A DNA stretch of 64,000 nt from Qipengyuania proteolytica (lineage in GTDB: Bacteria; Pseudomonadota; Alphaproteobacteria; Sphingomonadales; Sphingomonadaceae). The DNA lies in assembly GCF_019711565.1 (NCBI RefSeq), contig NZ_JAIGNN010000001.1, forward strand, positions 744,001 to 808,000, read 5' to 3'. Of the stretch, positions 52,366 to 58,544 are shown one piece after another. The translations under genes were made by a program, and so were the position numbers. The number at the start of each line of letters is the position of its first letter. The stretch's first letter is position 1. A model generated the notes under the pieces. The model saw nothing but the letters and a program-made list of their open reading frames with translations. It was not told the DNA's origin and made no database searches.

Positions 52366-52435
52366 GGAGGGCGATATAGAGCCTGCGTGATGAAGGGGCA
52401 ATGACAGGCCGCGCGTCTTGCGGCATGAGGCGCAC

Positions 52436-53437
52436 ATGAAGGATCCCAACGATCATATCGTCTCCGATACGCCGCTCCTGTTCGGGCGCGTGCTCGACGG
52501 CGAAGGTGGTGCCCGCGCGATCGGCTGGGCGGAGGCGCAGGGGTGGGTGCCGCAGAAACAGGGTGAGGTGATGTGGCTCCACCTTTGTCGCCACTTCGAT
52601 GGCGTGGAACCCTGGCTCGAAACCGAACTCGGAATTCCCGAGCCGATTGCCGAATTGCTGACAAGCGATGCCAATCGCCCGCGCGCCTTTCGTGACGGCG
52701 AGACGCTGGTGGCCACGCTGCGGGGGATCAACTTCAACCCCGGAGCCGAGCCTGAAGACATGATCTCGATGCAGCTTTGGAGCGACGGGCAGCGCTTGAT
52801 AACCCTACGCCGACACCCGATGCAGACTCCGCGCGAAGTCATGGGCATGCTCGACCGGGGGAACGGACCGGTCGACGCCGGCGCCACGATCACGCTGCTT
52901 GCCGAGCTGCTGATCACGCGGATGAGCCAGTCGATCATCGACATGAACCAGGTGCTCGACGAGCTGGAGGACGAGGATCCCGAAAAGGATCCCGAAGGGA
53001 TGCTGAAGCGCATCTCCACCATTCGCCGCAACTGCCTCGGACTCAAGCGGCACATGGCCCCGCAGCACGAGGCGCTTGAGCAGATCAGCCGCGATTCCCC
53101 CTACTGGTTCGAGGAAGAGGACCGGCGGGAGATCGCAGAGAGCATCGCGCGCTTGCGGCGCTACATCGACGATATCGACATCAGCAAGGAAAGCGCGCTG
53201 GTGCTGCAGGACGAAATCCGCGCCCGCAGCCTCGCGAGCAGCGAACACGCCACCTACATGCTGACCATCGTGGCGGGCATCTTCCTGCCGCTCAGCTTCC
53301 TCACCGGCCTGCTCGGCATCAATGTCGGCGGCATGCCGGGCATGGACGATCCGGACGCGTTCTGGTTCGTCGTCGCGCTCTGCTCGTTGCTGTTCGTGGC
53401 GCTGATCGTGGTCTTCCGCCGCCTGCGGTGGCTCTAG
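52436..53437 (+). CDS. zntB: Zinc transporter ZntB / CorA-family protein
   Basis: A 333-residue CorA-superfamily protein: a large N-terminal cytoplasmic domain ([16 protein letters not shown], long helices with [20 protein letters not shown]) and two C-terminal membrane segments around the selectivity motif GINVGGMPG (Gly-Ile-Asn, ZntB style instead of Gly-Met-Asn of CorA). ZntB moves Zn2+ coupled to protons. It is adjacent, tail to tail, to the SigF/bufferin locus, which may be coincidence or a metal-homeostasis island. The ATG at 52436 is chosen; an alternative start is 18 nt upstream. Confidence 0.85.
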
Positions 53438-53441
53438 CGGA

Positions 53442-54101
53442 TCACCACCGCACCAGCGGCGGAACGGCGAGCCGGCCGACGAGCGCTGCCAGCGCCACGG
53501 GCAGGACATGCCACACGCCCAAATGGCCAAGGGTGTCGATCGGGCAGGCGAGGCCATAGGCGAAGCTGCCGATTGCCCCTGCGGCGACACCGGTAAAGGT
53601 GCCCGCAGCGGCCAGCGAAACCGGCGCTCCGCGGCGGAGCCACAGGACCAGTGCGGCGGCGGTCACGAGGCCAAAGCCGGTCCCCGCAGCGAAGCATTCG
53701 AAGCCGTAGGGATCGCCGAGGATTTCGGCGATGGAGCCGCCGATGCCGAGTGTCACGACCGCTGTCGCGGGCAGCAGGCCAAGCATGGCGAAAGACCAGC
53801 GTGCGCCCTCGTGGCTGTTGCCGACCCGCGGAGTCGCCATCCGCAGCACGGCCAGCGCGGAGGCCGCTCCGAGCAAGCCGAGCATGCCGTTGGCGATGAA
53901 GAACAGTGCCGAGGCGCGTCCGGCCAGGATGCCGCGCCACAAGCCGTCGATGAGTTCGACCAGCACCACCGTGGCGATGGCGGCCAGCGCGACCAGCGCG
54001 ATGCCGTGGACCAAGCGCACCGGACGGACTGGTGCGAGGTCCGCCGCAAGGTCGTCGATCAGGGAATTGGAAATTCTGCCGGTCTCGGGGTTCATTGTCA
54101 T
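53442..54101 (-). CDS. nrsF: Anti-sigma-F factor NrsF (DUF1109)
   Basis: A 219-residue membrane protein of the NrsF/DUF1109 family, which holds SigF inactive at the inner membrane until stress. It has a cytoplasmic N-terminus (LIDDLAADLAPVRPV, the sigma-binding part) and six membrane segments. Two cysteines, Cys136 (PYGFECF) and Cys186 (YGLACPI), lie 50 residues apart; in Caulobacter NrsF a conserved pair with the same spacing senses stress. The ATG at 54101 overlaps the sigma factor's stop as ATGA. It is the last gene of the bufA1-doxX-sigF-nrsF operon. Confidence 0.9.
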   Translation of the reverse strand: MTMNPETGRISNSLIDDLAADLAPVRPVRLVHGIALVALAAIATVVLVELIDGLWRGILAGRASALFFIANGMLGLLGAASALAVLRMATPRVGNSHEGARWSFAMLGLLPATAVVTLGIGGSIAEILGDPYGFECFAAGTGFGLVTAAALVLWLRRGAPVSLAAAGTFTGVAAGAIGSFAYGLACPIDTLGHLGVWHVLPVALAALVGRLAVPPLVRW

Positions 54102-54628
54102 TCTGCTTTCTCGATCAGCGCGGACAGCTTCTTCAGCCCGCGATGGATATTCACTTTGACCAGGCTTTCGCTCTGGCCGGTCCGTTCCGAGGCTTCGGCG
54201 ATCGTCAGCCCCTCGATCTTGACGAGTTCGATGACCTCGCTCTGCTTGTCGGGCAGGTGGACGAACAGCCGCTCGAGGCTCATGCGCGCCATCACCGCCT
54301 CCTCGTCGCTGTCTTCCGCCGCGTCCCAGTCGCCCAGTTCGTCCTCGGCATGGCGATAGACTTTGCGGAGGTGATCGACCCAGCGATAGCGCGCGATGGC
54401 GGCGAGCCAGGGAAGGAAGGGCCGGTCCGGATCCCAAGTGGCACGCTTGGTATGGACGGCCATCAGGACTTCCTGGACCAGATCGTCGAGCTGGGCGGGC
54501 GCGACGCGGCGGCGGAAATACCGCTCGAGCCACAGCTGCACTTCGGACAGCAGCACCCGGTAGGCCGCCTTGTCGCCGCCCTGCGAGGCTCGCATCAGAT
54601 GCGCGAGGCTGGCTTCGTCGGCGATCAT
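54098..54628 (-). CDS. sigF: ECF sigma factor SigF
   Basis: A 176-residue ECF sigma factor. Region 2 shows YRVLLSEVQLWLERYFRRR, the core-binding DDLVQEVLMAVHTKRATWD and PFLPWLAAIARYRWVDHLRK; region 4 shows LPDKQSEVIELVKIEGLTIAE and the helix-turn-helix GQSESLVKVNIHRGLKKL. It matches the SigF group regulated by NrsF, which responds to oxidative and heavy-metal stress. The ATG at 54628 has GGAGG 6 nt upstream. It lies downstream of bufA1 and doxX, so the SigF-type promoter at 55497-55522 would make it autoregulated. Confidence 0.92.
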   Translation of the reverse strand: MIADEASLAHLMRASQGGDKAAYRVLLSEVQLWLERYFRRRVAPAQLDDLVQEVLMAVHTKRATWDPDRPFLPWLAAIARYRWVDHLRKVYRHAEDELGDWDAAEDSDEEAVMARMSLERLFVHLPDKQSEVIELVKIEGLTIAEASERTGQSESLVKVNIHRGLKKLSALIEKAE

Positions 54629-54653
54629 CGCGTCCTCCCTGCGCTCTCGAGTA

Positions 54654-55112
54654 TCACTGCGCGCGCCGCGAGGCGAGCAGGGCATCGAGCGACAGCACGC
54701 CGCCGCCCCGCACGATCAGCACAGCTGCCATCGCGGCCCATATGATATGCGTCTGCCACCAGGCCTCGGGATAGACGAACAGCTGGATGACCATGGTCAT
54801 TACCAGCAGCGCCACAGCGGAGAGCCGGGTAAGAAGGCCGAGCACCAGGAGAATCGGGAACAGGTGCTCGGCCCAGGTCGCCATCGGGGTCATGATGGCG
54901 GGAGGAAAGGGGAGGCCAGCGTATTCGTATTCGAACAGGAAATAGGCCTGGTCGCTGATGGAAAGCAGCGAGCCTTCTTCGACCTTGGTCCTGCCCGAGC
55001 GCCAGAAGATCCCGGCGAGGGCGACGCGGGTAAGCAGCAGCGCCAGACCTTCCGGCAGCCGCGAACTCAGGAATGCGGTGAGTTTGTCGTATCCGGACAG
55101 CAGGCTCTGCAT
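54654..55112 (-). CDS. bufD: DoxX-family membrane protein (bufferin-operon type)
   Basis: A 152-residue DoxX-like protein with four predicted membrane segments and the DoxX motif LLLTRVALAGIFWRSGRTKVEEG; LFPILLVLGLLTRLSAVALLVMTMVIQLFVYPEAW is also characteristic. In bufferin operons a DoxX protein (BufD) commonly accompanies the precursor and its enzymes; its activity is not established, a redox or quinone-linked role being likely. Here it sits between bufA1 and sigF, with 32-nt and 25-nt gaps, in the minus-strand arm. Confidence 0.85.
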   Translation of the reverse strand: MQSLLSGYDKLTAFLSSRLPEGLALLLTRVALAGIFWRSGRTKVEEGSLLSISDQAYFLFEYEYAGLPFPPAIMTPMATWAEHLFPILLVLGLLTRLSAVALLVMTMVIQLFVYPEAWWQTHIIWAAMAAVLIVRGGGVLSLDALLASRRAQ

Positions 55113-55144
55113 GGCTTACCTCGCGTCTTGGCGGTCAGCGCCGG

Positions 55145-55432
55145 TCAGCGCTTGAGTTCGGTCAGCGAGCCCTTGCCCTTGGGCGTCTCGATCTTCACGC
55201 AGCTGCCCTTGGGGACGAGCTTCCAGGCATTGCCCTGGTAGTCGCGGGTGGAAGTGCCGGCGCAGCTGGTGCCCGGGCCCGCGGTGCAGTCGTTCTCGCC
55301 CGCCTTGGCGACGCCGTAGCACTTCTCCATCGCCGGCTTCTTCTGCGCGGCGGCGGGACTGGCGGCGAGGCCTGTGGTGACGCTGGCGGCAAACGCGAGG
55401 CCGGCGATCCGGGCAATCGAACTGGTGTTCAT
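55145..55432 (-). CDS. bufA1: Bufferin precursor peptide, BufA1 type (DUF2282)
   Basis: A 95-residue exported peptide: signal peptide about 1-29 (cut at AAA-QK), then a mature part with four Cys at 38, 49, 57 and 78 in [17 protein letters not shown] and [18 protein letters not shown], the DUF2282 signature of BufA1 precursors. Known relatives are ribosomal peptides whose cysteines are converted by an MNIO enzyme into heterocycles that bind copper in the periplasm. A perfect-spacing SigF-type promoter (one base off) lies upstream. No MNIO gene is on this strand, so modification would depend on BufB of the divergent arm. Confidence 0.9.
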
Positions 55433-55496
55433 GGCATGTCTCTCTCGAATAACTTTGGGGGGGCGTGCCGACGGTGTCGCCGGAACTGGCTGGTCA

Positions 55497-55522
55497 TTCG
55501 GGAGCGGGAGAAAACCCGTTAC
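55497..55522 (-). promoter_or_regulatory. SigF-type promoter for bufA1-doxX-sigF-nrsF
   Basis: On the minus strand GTAACG (55522-55517), 16 nt, then CGAA (55500-55497). This fits the known SigF pattern GTAACC-N16-CGAA with one change. The -10 end is 64 nt from the bufA1 ATG. It faces away from the plus-strand copy, the two -35 boxes being 24 nt apart. Confidence 0.8.
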
Positions 55523-55546
55523 AGGGCCGCCGAAAAAATTCGCGCT

Positions 55547-55572
55547 GTAACCGCCGATTGCGGGGCGGCGAA
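55547..55572 (+). promoter_or_regulatory. SigF-type promoter for bufA2-bufB-bufC
   Basis: GTAACC (55547-55552), exactly 16 nt, then CGAA (55569-55572): a perfect match to the SigF pattern known from Caulobacter. The -10 end is 51 nt from the bufA2 ATG, leaving room for a leader and the AAGGGA ribosome site. Confidence 0.85.
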
Positions 55573-55623
55573 CCGGGTCATGTGCACCCCCGCACACCCA
55601 GTTACCCAAAGGGATTTGATGCC

Positions 55624-55908
55624 ATGACCACCAGGACCAAGCCCGCCGTTGCAGCCGCCGCGGCCCTCTTCGCCCTTACCTCCATGAACGCGTTCGCCGC
55701 CGAGCCGCCCGTCGGCAGCAACGGCCGCGCGATCGGCGCGGGCGACACCGTGCATTGCTACGGTATCCACTCGTGCAAGGGCCAGGCTGACTGCGCCACC
55801 GCCGAGAACGAGTGCAAGGGCCAGAACGAATGCAAGGGCCACGGCTTCAAGGCGATGAAGGCGGGCGACTGCCTCGCCAAGGGCGGCACCATCGGCGACC
55901 TCGGCTGA
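55624..55908 (+). CDS. bufA2: Bufferin precursor peptide, BufA2-like
   Basis: A 94-residue exported peptide: signal peptide about 1-25 (cut at AFA-AE) and a mature part with six Cys (45, 51, 57, 64, 70 and 83). The core VHCYGIHSC is followed by a Cys-Lys-Gly repeat (CKGQADC, ECKGQ, ECKGHG) and a closing AGDCLAKGG. This is the second bufferin precursor family, often annotated as a small exported metal-binding protein. It is followed after 73 nt by the modifying enzyme gene bufB. Six cysteines give several possible modification sites. Confidence 0.88.
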
Positions 55909-55981
55909 CCGGTTTGGCGGTCCGGCCAATGCCCCCCGTCCCGCCGGGCCGCCACCCACTCCCTGTGACACGGAGCCCTCG

Positions 55982-56818
55982 ATGACCGACATCGCTCCCT
56001 TCGCCGGCTTCGGCCTCGGCCTCAGGCGGAGGCACTATGCGGACTTCCTCGAAGGCACTGTGCCGGTCGATTTCGTCGAGGTGATCTCCGAGAACTACAT
56101 GGTCGACGGCGGCAAGCCGCTGCGCTTGCTCGAGGAGGCGCGCGCCAGACACCCCGTCATCCTCCATGGCGTATCCATGTCGATCGGCTCGGCGCATGGT
56201 CTGGACGCCGACTATCTCGCGCGGCTCAAGGCGCTGGCCGACCGGATCGAGCCGCTCTGGATGTCCGACCATTTGTGCTGGACGCGCAGCAGCGCGCACA
56301 ACACGCATGACCTGCTGCCTTTGCCGCTGACCGCCGAAGCGCTCGACGTGGTATGCGACAATATCGAACGCGCGCAGGACGCGCTCGGGCGGCCGATGCT
56401 GTTCGAAAACCCTTCGAGTTATCTCACCTTCCCCGAAGACGAGATGGCCGAGTGGGAGTTCATCGCCGCGATGGCGCAGCGCACCGGCTGCTACCTGCTG
56501 CTGGACGTGAACAACGTCTATGTCAGCGCGCATAATCACGGTTTCTCGGCGCACGACTATCTCGATGGCCTCCCGCTCGATCGTGTGCGCCAGATCCATC
56601 TCGCGGGTCACCAGCCGGGTGACATCATCGTCGACACGCACGACCGCGCGGTGAGCGACGGCGTGTGGGCACTCTATGCCGAGGCGATGCGGCGGCTCGG
56701 CCCGGTTGCCACCATGATCGAGCGCGACGACAAGATTCCGCCGTTGCCGAACCTGCTCGACGAATTGGCCCGCGCGCGAGATTTCGCGACCCAAACGTGG
56801 GAGGCCGTGGCCGCATGA
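55982..56818 (+). CDS. bufB: MNIO-family peptide-modifying enzyme BufB (DUF692)
   Basis: A 278-residue TIM-barrel enzyme of the DUF692 family (multinuclear non-heme iron oxidative enzymes, related to MbnB). Likely metal ligands and landmarks: His62 (ILHGVSMSIG), Asp96-His97 (WMSDHLCW), His109 (NTHDLLPLP), Glu142 (FENPSSYLTF), Asp175 (LLLDVNNVYV), His206 and His210 (IHLAGH), Asp218-His220 (VDTHD) and Glu248 (MIERDD). It would convert precursor cysteines to heterocycles with oxygen. The set of ligands is complete, so the enzyme should be active. Overlaps bufC by ATGA. Confidence 0.93.
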   Translation: MTDIAPFAGFGLGLRRRHYADFLEGTVPVDFVEVISENYMVDGGKPLRLLEEARARHPVILHGVSMSIGSAHGLDADYLARLKALADRIEPLWMSDHLCWTRSSAHNTHDLLPLPLTAEALDVVCDNIERAQDALGRPMLFENPSSYLTFPEDEMAEWEFIAAMAQRTGCYLLLDVNNVYVSAHNHGFSAHDYLDGLPLDRVRQIHLAGHQPGDIIVDTHDRAVSDGVWALYAEAMRRLGPVATMIERDDKIPPLPNLLDELARARDFATQTWEAVAA

Positions 56819-57588
56819 CTGCGCTTGCCGAATTGCAGGAGGGTATGCTCGCGCGAATCCTCGCCGACGAATTGCCGCTCCCGCACGGATGGACCGCGCG
56901 ACACGAAGCGGGCCTCGAGATCTACCGCAACAACTACCGGACCGCGCTGGTCGAAGCCTTGCGTTCGACTTTCGAGCGGACCGAGCGGCTGGTCGGCGAG
57001 GAGAGCTTCCGCCGCGCCGCCGCGCATCATTGCATTGCGCATCCGCCGACGAGCTGGACGCTCGATCTCGCCGGCGCGGGTTTCCCGGATACCTGTGCCG
57101 AGCTGTTTGCCAACGATCCCGATGTCGAAGAGCTGGCAGCGCTCGAATGGGCGATGCATCGTGCCTTTCCCGCGCGCGACGCGGAGCCGCTCGACACGGC
57201 TGGCTTCGCGGCAACCACTGCTGAGTTCGGCGAAGCGGACTGGATCGGCCTGCTTCTCGATTTCCTGCCCGGGCTGTCGCTGGTCAGGACGCGGCATGAT
57301 CTCGTTGGCTTGTGGTCGTCGCTGGCAACCCTTGAGGGGGCGGCCGATGTCCGCAAGCTCGACGAGCCGCAATGCGCAGTCGTCTGGCGTGAAGGCGAGC
57401 GCCCCGTCTTCGTCCTGCGGCCGCTCTGGGAAGGCGGTGCGCTTGCCGCTCTCGCCGAAGGCGGCACCTTCGGCGAAGCCTGCGCACTGCTGGTCGACGA
57501 ACTTGGCGAGGAACGGGCCGTGACCAATGCCGGCGCGATGCTTGCGCGCTGGCTCGCCGACGGCATCATCGCCGGGATCGCTCAGTAG
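56815..57588 (+). CDS. bufC: Bufferin partner protein BufC (DUF2063)
   Basis: A 257-residue protein of the DUF2063 family, the usual partner of MNIO enzymes, thought to deliver the precursor peptide. The N-terminal helical domain has HEAGLEIYRNNYRTALVEAL and TFERTERLVGEESFRRAAAHH, followed by the DUF2063 middle part SWTLDLAGAGFPD and a C-terminal winged region with VLRPLWEGGALAALAEGGTF. The ATG at 56815 overlaps the bufB stop. The 3' end overlaps the convergent SDR gene by 7 nt. Confidence 0.9.
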   Translation: MTALAELQEGMLARILADELPLPHGWTARHEAGLEIYRNNYRTALVEALRSTFERTERLVGEESFRRAAAHHCIAHPPTSWTLDLAGAGFPDTCAELFANDPDVEELAALEWAMHRAFPARDAEPLDTAGFAATTAEFGEADWIGLLLDFLPGLSLVRTRHDLVGLWSSLATLEGAADVRKLDEPQCAVVWREGERPVFVLRPLWEGGALAALAEGGTFGEACALLVDELGEERAVTNAGAMLARWLADGIIAGIAQ

Positions 57589-58544
57589 GCGAAACTTTCC
57601 CCGACCAGCGTCTCGGAGAGAGCCCACAGCGCCTCCGCATTATCCGGATCGATCGCGTAGCTCTTCACCCCGCCGGTCGGGTTGTCGTCGTCCTGGTGTG
57701 CGACGTGGCAATCCTCGCAATAGACCCCGCCCGCGCCCTCGAGTTCATCGGCGGTGGCGACCCAGCACGTGGTCGCGGCCCCTTGCGGGATGGTCTTGAA
57801 ACCGCTCGGCTCCTCGCCGCTCTGCTCGGCGTTCTTCCTGATCCGGTCCATCATCCAGGCCCGGTCCTCCTCGGTCATGTGGCGGCCGAGATTGGTCATG
57901 ATCCCACCGGGATGCAGTGCGTAGGAATGGATACCCTTGTCCCCGAGGCGCTTCTCAAGCCCGACAGCGAACAGGATATTGGCGGTCTTCGACTGTCCGT
58001 AGGCGGTCCACTTATCGTAGTCGCGTGTCTCGTAACTCGGATCGTCGAGATGGACGTGGTCGAAATGATGCCCGCGGCTGGACAGGTTGACGATCCGCGG
58101 ATGATCACCCTTCTCGACCAGCGGCATCACCAGGTTGGTGAGGAGGAAGTGCCCGAGGTGGTTGGTGCCGAATTGCAGCTCGAAACCGTCGGCGGTGCGC
58201 TCCAGCGGCGGCGCCATGACGCCGGCGTTGTTGATCAGCAGGTCGATCTTGCCGAACCGCCCGTTCGCCTCTTTGGCGGCGGCACGCACACTGTCGAGCG
58301 AGGCGAGATCGCACACCAGCGTCTCGACCGTCGCACCGGTCGCATCCGCGATTTCCGTCGCCGCCTCGTCCAGCTTGTCGGCATCGCGCCCGGAGAGGAT
58401 GATGTGCGCTCCCTTGGCGGCCATCGCGCGGGCAGTCTCCTTCCCGAGGCCGGAATAGCCGCCGGTGATCAGCGCAGTGCGCCCCGACAGGTCCTTGCCC
58501 TCCAGGACCTCGTCCGCAGTGCTGGAAAATCCGAATTCGCTCAT
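57582..58544 (-). CDS. Short-chain dehydrogenase/reductase (retinol-dehydrogenase-like)
   Basis: A 320-residue SDR with the coenzyme motif ITGGYSGLGKETA, the NNAGV motif (LLINNAGVMAPPL), the catalytic Ser in IVNLSSRGHH and the Tyr-x3-Lys in YGQSKTAN. The overall form, with a long C-terminal tail, resembles the RDH/WWOX-like short-chain enzymes. The substrate is unknown. The ATG at 58544 has GAGGAG upstream. Its 3' end overlaps bufC's, but it is transcribed away from that operon and probably unrelated to it. Confidence 0.87.
   Translation of the reverse strand: MSEFGFSSTADEVLEGKDLSGRTALITGGYSGLGKETARAMAAKGAHIILSGRDADKLDEAATEIADATGATVETLVCDLASLDSVRAAAKEANGRFGKIDLLINNAGVMAPPLERTADGFELQFGTNHLGHFLLTNLVMPLVEKGDHPRIVNLSSRGHHFDHVHLDDPSYETRDYDKWTAYGQSKTANILFAVGLEKRLGDKGIHSYALHPGGIMTNLGRHMTEEDRAWMMDRIRKNAEQSGEEPSGFKTIPQGAATTCWVATADELEGAGGVYCEDCHVAHQDDDNPTGGVKSYAIDPDNAEALWALSETLVGESFAY

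Follow-up and report, generated by a model that had tools for sequence, protein, structure and literature searches.

One Buf2-class enzyme pair facing two classes of bufferin-type precursor in a predicted SigF-driven two-arm locus of Qipengyuania proteolytica

Exploring a 64,000-nucleotide stretch of the Qipengyuania proteolytica genome (hereafter the window), we found at positions 53442-57588 a locus of seven genes, nrsF-sigF-doxX-bufA1 <> bufA2-bufB-bufC, whose order and orientation were verified. Its two arms, which are predicted to be driven by the sigma factor SigF, carry bufferin-type precursors that belong to different classes and one Buf2-class enzyme pair, the maturase BufB and its partner BufC, that likely matures both precursors upon metal stress; we give this reading a probability of roughly two in three. 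What can be read directly from the sequence is the set of genes, the predicted back-to-back promoters, one MNIO and its Buf2 class, the four cysteines of BufA1, and relatives in which the pair stays together with BufA1 although bufA2 is lost. The layout is recurrent; what sets the locus apart is that a lone Buf2-type enzyme meets precursors of two classes, for which gene loss provides a natural test. A first-pass annotation of this DNA had already called two divergent Cys-rich precursors of the BufA1 and BufA2 types, one leading bufB-bufC and the other doxX-sigF-nrsF, with enzymes of the DUF692/MNIO and DUF2063 families, and these calls agree with the gene order, the strands and the profile scores listed below. 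It overlooked the back-to-back SigF-type promoters as well as the Buf2 type of the sole pair, which faces a Buf1 precursor.

53442-54101, minus strand: nrsF, predicted six-helix membrane anti-sigma factor (PF06532, 130.9 bits; refined start)
54098-54628, minus strand: sigF, extracytoplasmic function (ECF) sigma factor (Sigma70_r2 41.0 bits, Sigma70_r4_2 51.4 bits; refined start)
54654-55112, minus strand: doxX, DoxX/HvfX-like membrane protein (PF07681, 60.4 bits)
55145-55432, minus strand: bufA1, Buf1-class (DUF2282) precursor with four Cys (PF10048, 89.6 bits; cut-off 22.4)
55497-55522, minus strand: predicted SigF-type promoter of the bufA1-doxX-sigF-nrsF arm, GTAACG-N16-CGAA
55547-55572, plus strand: predicted SigF-type promoter of the bufA2-bufB-bufC arm, GTAACC-N16-CGAA
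55624-55908, plus strand: bufA2, Buf2-class precursor with six Cys (NF050166, 103.6 bits; cut-off 60)
55982-56818, plus strand: bufB, MNIO maturase of the Buf2 class (NF050167, 379.7 bits, cut-off 310; PF05114, 367.3 bits)
56815-57588, plus strand: bufC, DUF2063 partner protein (PF09836, 70.0 bits)

Class of the sole enzyme pair

Two collections were compared with the window. The first is a sample of 99 genomes of the family, the window's own included; the second (the named loci) comprises the best 80 among 582 stretches confirmed in a search with an aligned set of 18 BufB. Precursor classes were assigned by Cys counts and by separate bufA1 and bufA2 profiles. Most of the 18 BufB came from loci of the window type or with sigF-nrsF before bufA2; the query was biased toward mixed DUF2282/Buf2-type loci, and the counts among the named loci are no census.

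The genome that holds the window (G000; 7 contigs, rated 100% complete) has a single MNIO gene, bufB. In a tree of 40 MNIO rows of the family sample, the 13 rows adjacent to bufA1 and the 21 adjacent to bufA2 fell on separate branches (97/98 and 94/78, respectively), with one unassigned row in each branch and four further unassigned rows outside, and the BufB of the window was placed with the bufA2-linked rows. An active-site Asp has been tied to Cys-Lys (BufA2-type) substrates (Gadgil et al. 2026, PMC13097082). The corresponding residue of the window's BufB, at the position of Phe250 in FonB, is Asp250. Of 92 Buf2-type rows, 84 carry D here, 4 A and 4 G; of 18 Buf1-type rows, 10 carry T, 1 D and 7 other residues, some genomes being represented in both the family sample and the named loci. 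Because of the tree placement and Asp250 we assign BufB to the Buf2 class; by sequence, the sole maturase is Buf2-class while one of the two precursors is Buf1-class. Among the 42 BufB rows of the tree described below, the nearest to that of the window is from a genome of the same genus (G078, 81% identity), followed by that of Qipengyuania gaetbuli. The predicted model of BufC (predicted local distance difference test score 94.6) matched best the folds 8hci_A and 8hi7_A of the TglHI complex, in which the MNIO is chain D, and 3dee, a DUF2063 protein. With its DUF2063 domain, this fold and an adjoining MNIO gene, bufC qualifies as a PME-type 1 partner.

The combination is frequent among the named loci: in 66 of the best 80 a single Buf2-type pair has a DUF2282 gene as its neighbour, and in all 66 the four Cys of BufA1 are intact. 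Both precursors of the window have N-termini that look signal-peptide-like by eye. Preliminary results quoted by Antoine et al. (PMC12452194) make the signal peptide part of the recognition by BufB-BufC; comparison of the BufA1 and BufA2 signal peptides, by eye only, revealed no clear likeness.

A clade without bufA2 and the question of substrate

Ten genomes, G041 and nine named ones each titled uncultured Erythrobacter sp., carry the divergent locus without bufA2, the arm opposite bufA1 starting with bufB. No BufA2-like open reading frame (ORF) was found in the divergent gap of the ten loci, and none of the ten genomes had a BufA2 match above cut-off genome-wide; the one match in G103 (28 bits) was below the cut-off and overlapped a DUF2282 match. 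All ten hold exactly one MNIO and two or three DUF2282 genes. SigF promoters were retained on both sides in nine of nine named loci and in G041, which is rated 100% complete and in which the bufB-side promoter was recognised by eye. In a tree of 42 BufB rows (41 different), the ten bufA2-less BufB formed one clade (100/98) within window-type loci, beside the Qipengyuania group holding the BufB of the window, and the sequences point to a single event of bufA2 loss. The ratio of nonsynonymous to synonymous substitution rates (dN/dS) of BufB was 0.070-0.105 in four of five pairs of the clade, the fifth being saturated, vs 0.055-0.193 in six pairs retaining bufA2; for BufC it was 0.061-0.204 in four of five pairs vs 0.172-0.304. 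Judged by these ratios, the pair is under purifying selection after the loss. A filter for other Cys-rich exported ORFs, which recovers 24 of 26 known precursors, returned six ORFs of dissimilar appearance in six of the nine named loci and no common alternative near bufB in the nine. As far as the profiles tell, the enzyme pair is retained in genomes whose recognised bufferin precursors all belong to the Buf1 class. Because the pair is kept behind a SigF promoter opposite bufA1, under purifying selection and without bufA2, Buf2-type enzymes likely act on DUF2282 precursors in this clade.

Several points weigh against shared maturation at the window locus. The window retains bufA2, so that maturation of both classes by its one pair is likely only by extension from the clade. 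MNIO subgroups follow precursor families (PMC12452194), and FonBC, of a third class, left motifs of the Cys-Lys type unprocessed (PMC13097082), so enzyme classes can discriminate. The natural test is a single loss in one clade; nine of its ten genomes are uncultured-organism assemblies of unstated completeness, and several dS values in the comparison exceed 1. Finally, position 250 is still acidic after the loss (D in 6 and E in 4 of 10), with no clear retuning.

Other positions of BufB did change in the clade. Pro46, present in 91 of 92 Buf2-type rows, was kept in one of ten, and Gly213 and Gly240, each present in 83 of 92, in none. Since Buf1-type rows often keep Pro46 (9/13) and Gly240 (13/13), not every change is a step toward the Buf1 type, and the changes at these positions and at position 250, coming from one clade, are leads only. 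Retuning of the active site was considered as proof of a substrate switch and set aside, position 250 staying acidic. On balance we favour the broader view that Buf2-class MNIO-DUF2063 pairs are dual-class maturases across many Pseudomonadota, and that in one Erythrobacter clade the pair was handed wholly to Buf1 after loss of bufA2, conservation being relaxed there at positions such as Pro46 and Asp250.

Alternatively, BufB-BufC may modify BufA2 only, BufA1 being exported with unmodified Cys that bind metal or thiols as such or serve another purpose. Antoine et al. (PMC12452194) raise this possibility for cases in which several precursors share a genome with a single enzyme pair, and it would suit both the Buf2-type Asp250 of the enzyme and the ability of FonBC to tell motif classes apart (PMC13097082). 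We consider it unlikely, given that ten genomes hold a Buf2-type pair under purifying selection with DUF2282 as the only recognised precursors and that BufA1 kept its four Cys in 66 of 66 such loci, whereas both central Cys are lost in the DUF2282 remnant of G051, the only one of the 33 DUF2282 genomes in the family sample that has no MNIO. The pair of the Erythrobacter clade might also have turned to a non-bufferin substrate after the loss, which would make the clade uninformative on BufA1. Some room for this idea is left by the search for substrates beyond the DUF2282 and BufA2 profiles, which covered the nine loci only; the position of the pair opposite bufA1 with both SigF promoters in all nine, and the dissimilar appearance of the six Cys-rich ORFs passed by a filter that recovers 24 of 26 known precursors, make it improbable. 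That a second MNIO elsewhere matures BufA1, the locus being simply two adjacent clusters, one Buf1 and one Buf2, is very improbable: both enzyme pairs occur in some relatives (G020 and 4 of the best 80 named loci), but the window genome holds one MNIO and so do nine of ten window-type family genomes, the tenth (G018) having two partial matches on different contigs.

Maturation of both precursors by one pair remains our preferred reading. The 2025 survey of Antoine et al. (PMC12452194) left open whether one MNIO-partner complex serves several precursors or the extra precursors stay unmodified. The two-arm loci and the bufA2-less clade make enzyme specificity directly testable with matched natural enzymes, and the changes in the clade single out residues that may help recognise the Buf2 substrate. 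Should the reading be true, an added precursor, with no added enzyme, can be enough to supply a metal-stress response with another metallophore.

SigF-type promoters and a proposed circuit

The Caulobacter SigF promoter is GTAACC-N16-CGAA (Kohler et al. 2012, PMC3511200). The pattern GTAACS-N16-CGAA had exactly two matches in the window, both in the divergent gap and back to back, where 0.05 were expected; two were reached in none of 100 shuffles. Allowing up to one mismatch within 200 nucleotides of the precursor gene, the site was present at 34 of 47 BufA1 and 20 of 22 BufA2 genes of the family sample, and the reversed control at none of the 69. All 16 named window-type loci had an exact match on both arms within about 330 nucleotides, compared with matches of up to one mismatch in 2 of 32 stretches for the reversed motif. 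Together, the sequences support a predicted two-arm SigF circuit with one switch common to both arms. The ECF sigma factor, the NrsF-family anti-sigma factor and the SigF-type promoters place the locus with SigF/NrsF (ECF16) systems; NrsF matched the Pfam family and scored 39 bits against the strict NCBIfam equivalog model (cut-off 300).

In Caulobacter, NrsF holds SigF at the membrane, two NrsF Cys matter, and chromate releases SigF; SigF-dependent genes are induced by chromate and cadmium (PMC3511200), the regulon is also induced by copper, and a sigF mutant is copper-sensitive (PMC8224329). SigF there controls both bufferin operons and sigF itself (PMC3511200, PMC8224329). NrsF of the window has two Cys in total, in the contexts FECF and ACPI. 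By analogy, copper or another thiophilic metal would act on these two Cys and release SigF, which would transcribe both arms, including its own gene and that of its inhibitor. With sigF and nrsF both in an arm that is switched on, the response would be self-amplifying and self-limiting; since Caulobacter sigF shows no strong autoregulation under chromate (PMC3511200), the amplifying loop may be weak. BufC would then present each precursor to BufB, which, as its family suggests, would convert Cys to thiooxazoles, and the mature peptides would be exported and, again judging from their families, keep copper bound in the periplasm. Most of this regulation is of a known kind: that Buf1 clusters can include a sigma factor, that SigF is autoregulated and that the system responds to copper has been published for Caulobacter or in surveys.

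The first-pass annotation had described the locus as self-contained and built around its own SigF/NrsF switch. The SigF-type promoters on both arms support one shared switch; the word self-contained is less well supported, because both msrA genes of the window genome, outside the window, are preceded by exact sites as well (C1:503610-503635 and C3:129392-129417). In a survey of 30 loci out of 42 MsrA matches, an exact SigF-type promoter was found within the same genus at 6 of 7 exported and 3 of 13 cytosolic MsrA, and at 0 of 10 in other families; msr genes recur in SigF-type regulons (PMC8315932). A genome-wide regulon could not be read from the motif alone, as GTAAC-N17-CGAA had 23 exact matches in the window genome vs 14 for the reversed control, and most of the 23 are probably chance. 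At C3:76664-76748 two SigF-type sites face each other 33 nucleotides apart, which could be chance; the minus-strand site lies 69 nucleotides before a pyridine nucleotide-disulphide oxidoreductase gene.

Distribution, known relatives and surrounding features

In the family sample DUF2282 was found in 33 of 99 genomes and MNIO in 35 (both in 32, DUF2282 only in 1, MNIO only in 3, neither in 63). The arrangement of the window recurs in 10 of the 99, with bufB-bufC split between contigs in G018, and in 16 of the best 80 named loci, a recurrence beyond chance. A form with sigF-nrsF before bufA2 was seen in 5 of the 99 and, directly before bufA2 in the bufA2 arm, in 18 of the 80. The remaining named loci were divergent with sigF elsewhere or not seen (4), divergent without bufA2 (9), colinear (19; Pseudomonas, Cupriavidus, Dyella, Massilia and others), endowed with two enzyme pairs (4), bufA2-containing without a nearby bufA1 (8), with bufA1 on the far side (1), or without a bufferin precursor near bufB (1, L199).

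The colinear mixed loci (L160-L163, L165, L166, L172-L177, L179, L182, L185, L200, L203, L212 and L213) carry bufA1 and then bufA2-bufB-bufC, and 2 of the 19 have a SigF-type promoter with up to one mismatch upstream of bufA1. In L162 and L172 a gene that looks alpha/beta-hydrolase-like by eye lies between doxX and bufA2. The gene content read in these two fits the Pseudomonas 'Pep4' cluster, which comprises a DUF2282 peptide, DoxX, a hydrolase, a second peptide, DUF692, DUF2063 and a hydrolase (PMC8719888); unlike the window, 'Pep4' lies on one strand, has hydrolases and lacks sigF.

The regulon of Caulobacter vibrioides SigF comprises sigF-nrsF, CC3254-CC3257 (Buf1) and CC2907-CC2905 (a second bufferin operon). 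The window locus has in common with it the SigF/NrsF switch, SigF promoters placed ahead of sigF and of the precursor operons, the DUF2282, MNIO, DUF2063 and DoxX genes and, as a prediction for the window, the copper response (PMC3511200, PMC8224329). However, in Caulobacter an MNIO and a DUF2063 gene come with every precursor operon, whereas the window has one pair for two precursors, with sigF-nrsF following bufA1-doxX in one arm. The classic Buf1 cluster, bufA1-bufB-bufC-doxX(-sigF-nrsF), occurs in relatives such as G042, G087 and G089 and is built from the same families; its MNIO belongs to the Buf1-linked group, whereas bufA1 of the window is followed not by MNIO and DUF2063 genes of its own but by doxX-sigF-nrsF. 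Antoine et al. (2025, PMC12452194) reported sigma factor and NrsF genes in Buf1 and not in Buf2 clusters, and with sigF-nrsF in its opposite arm the locus departs from their Buf2 cluster too. They also described precursors in tandem, and genomes in which a single enzyme pair accompanies several precursors. The captophorin systems of oxazolin and fontiphorin (HvfABC, FonABC) resemble the window locus in the MNIO with a DUF2063 partner and in the thiooxazoles and copper binding that are predicted for it, and differ in their EGKCG-repeat precursors and in Phe at the position of Asp250 (PMC13097082). In the literature searched, which did not include the original bufferin paper, figures, supplements or most subscription papers, we found no description of a divergent two-arm locus or of a Buf2-type enzyme on a Buf1 precursor. 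The first-pass suggestion of an undescribed variant may stand for the two-arm layout and is less well supported for the regulation, which is published in its elements (PMC12452194, PMC3511200, PMC8224329).

Within the bufA1 arm, 32 nucleotides separate bufA1 from doxX and 25 separate doxX from sigF, and sigF and nrsF overlap by 4; in the other arm bufA2 and bufB are 73 nucleotides apart and bufB and bufC overlap by 4. The divergent gap between bufA1 and bufA2 measures 191 nucleotides. DoxX scored 58 bits against the HvfX model NF050144, under its cut-off of 80, BufA2 had no match in Pfam, and an Rfam scan of the window gave 0 matches. Two genes flank the locus:

52418-53437: CorA-like transporter
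57591-58544: short-chain dehydrogenase

In G041 too a dehydrogenase of similar appearance (by eye) follows on the downstream side of bufC, at a distance of one more gene.

The BufA1 tail TPxGxG[ST]L accompanies a lone Buf2-type pair in 66 of 66 named loci and in 18 of 18 cases of the family sample, whereas none of 15 BufA1 with a Buf1-type pair has it; it was not decisive as a sign of Buf2-type processing, as three of four two-pair loci carry it too. Second, stand-alone DUF2282 genes occur in L093 (G041), L098 (G001), L101 (G089) and L096 (G023). In these an additional Cys sits early in the sequence within a lipobox-like context, so that they perhaps encode lipoprotein bufferins; an exact SigF-type promoter precedes the genes of L093 and L101, and none precedes those of L096 and L098.

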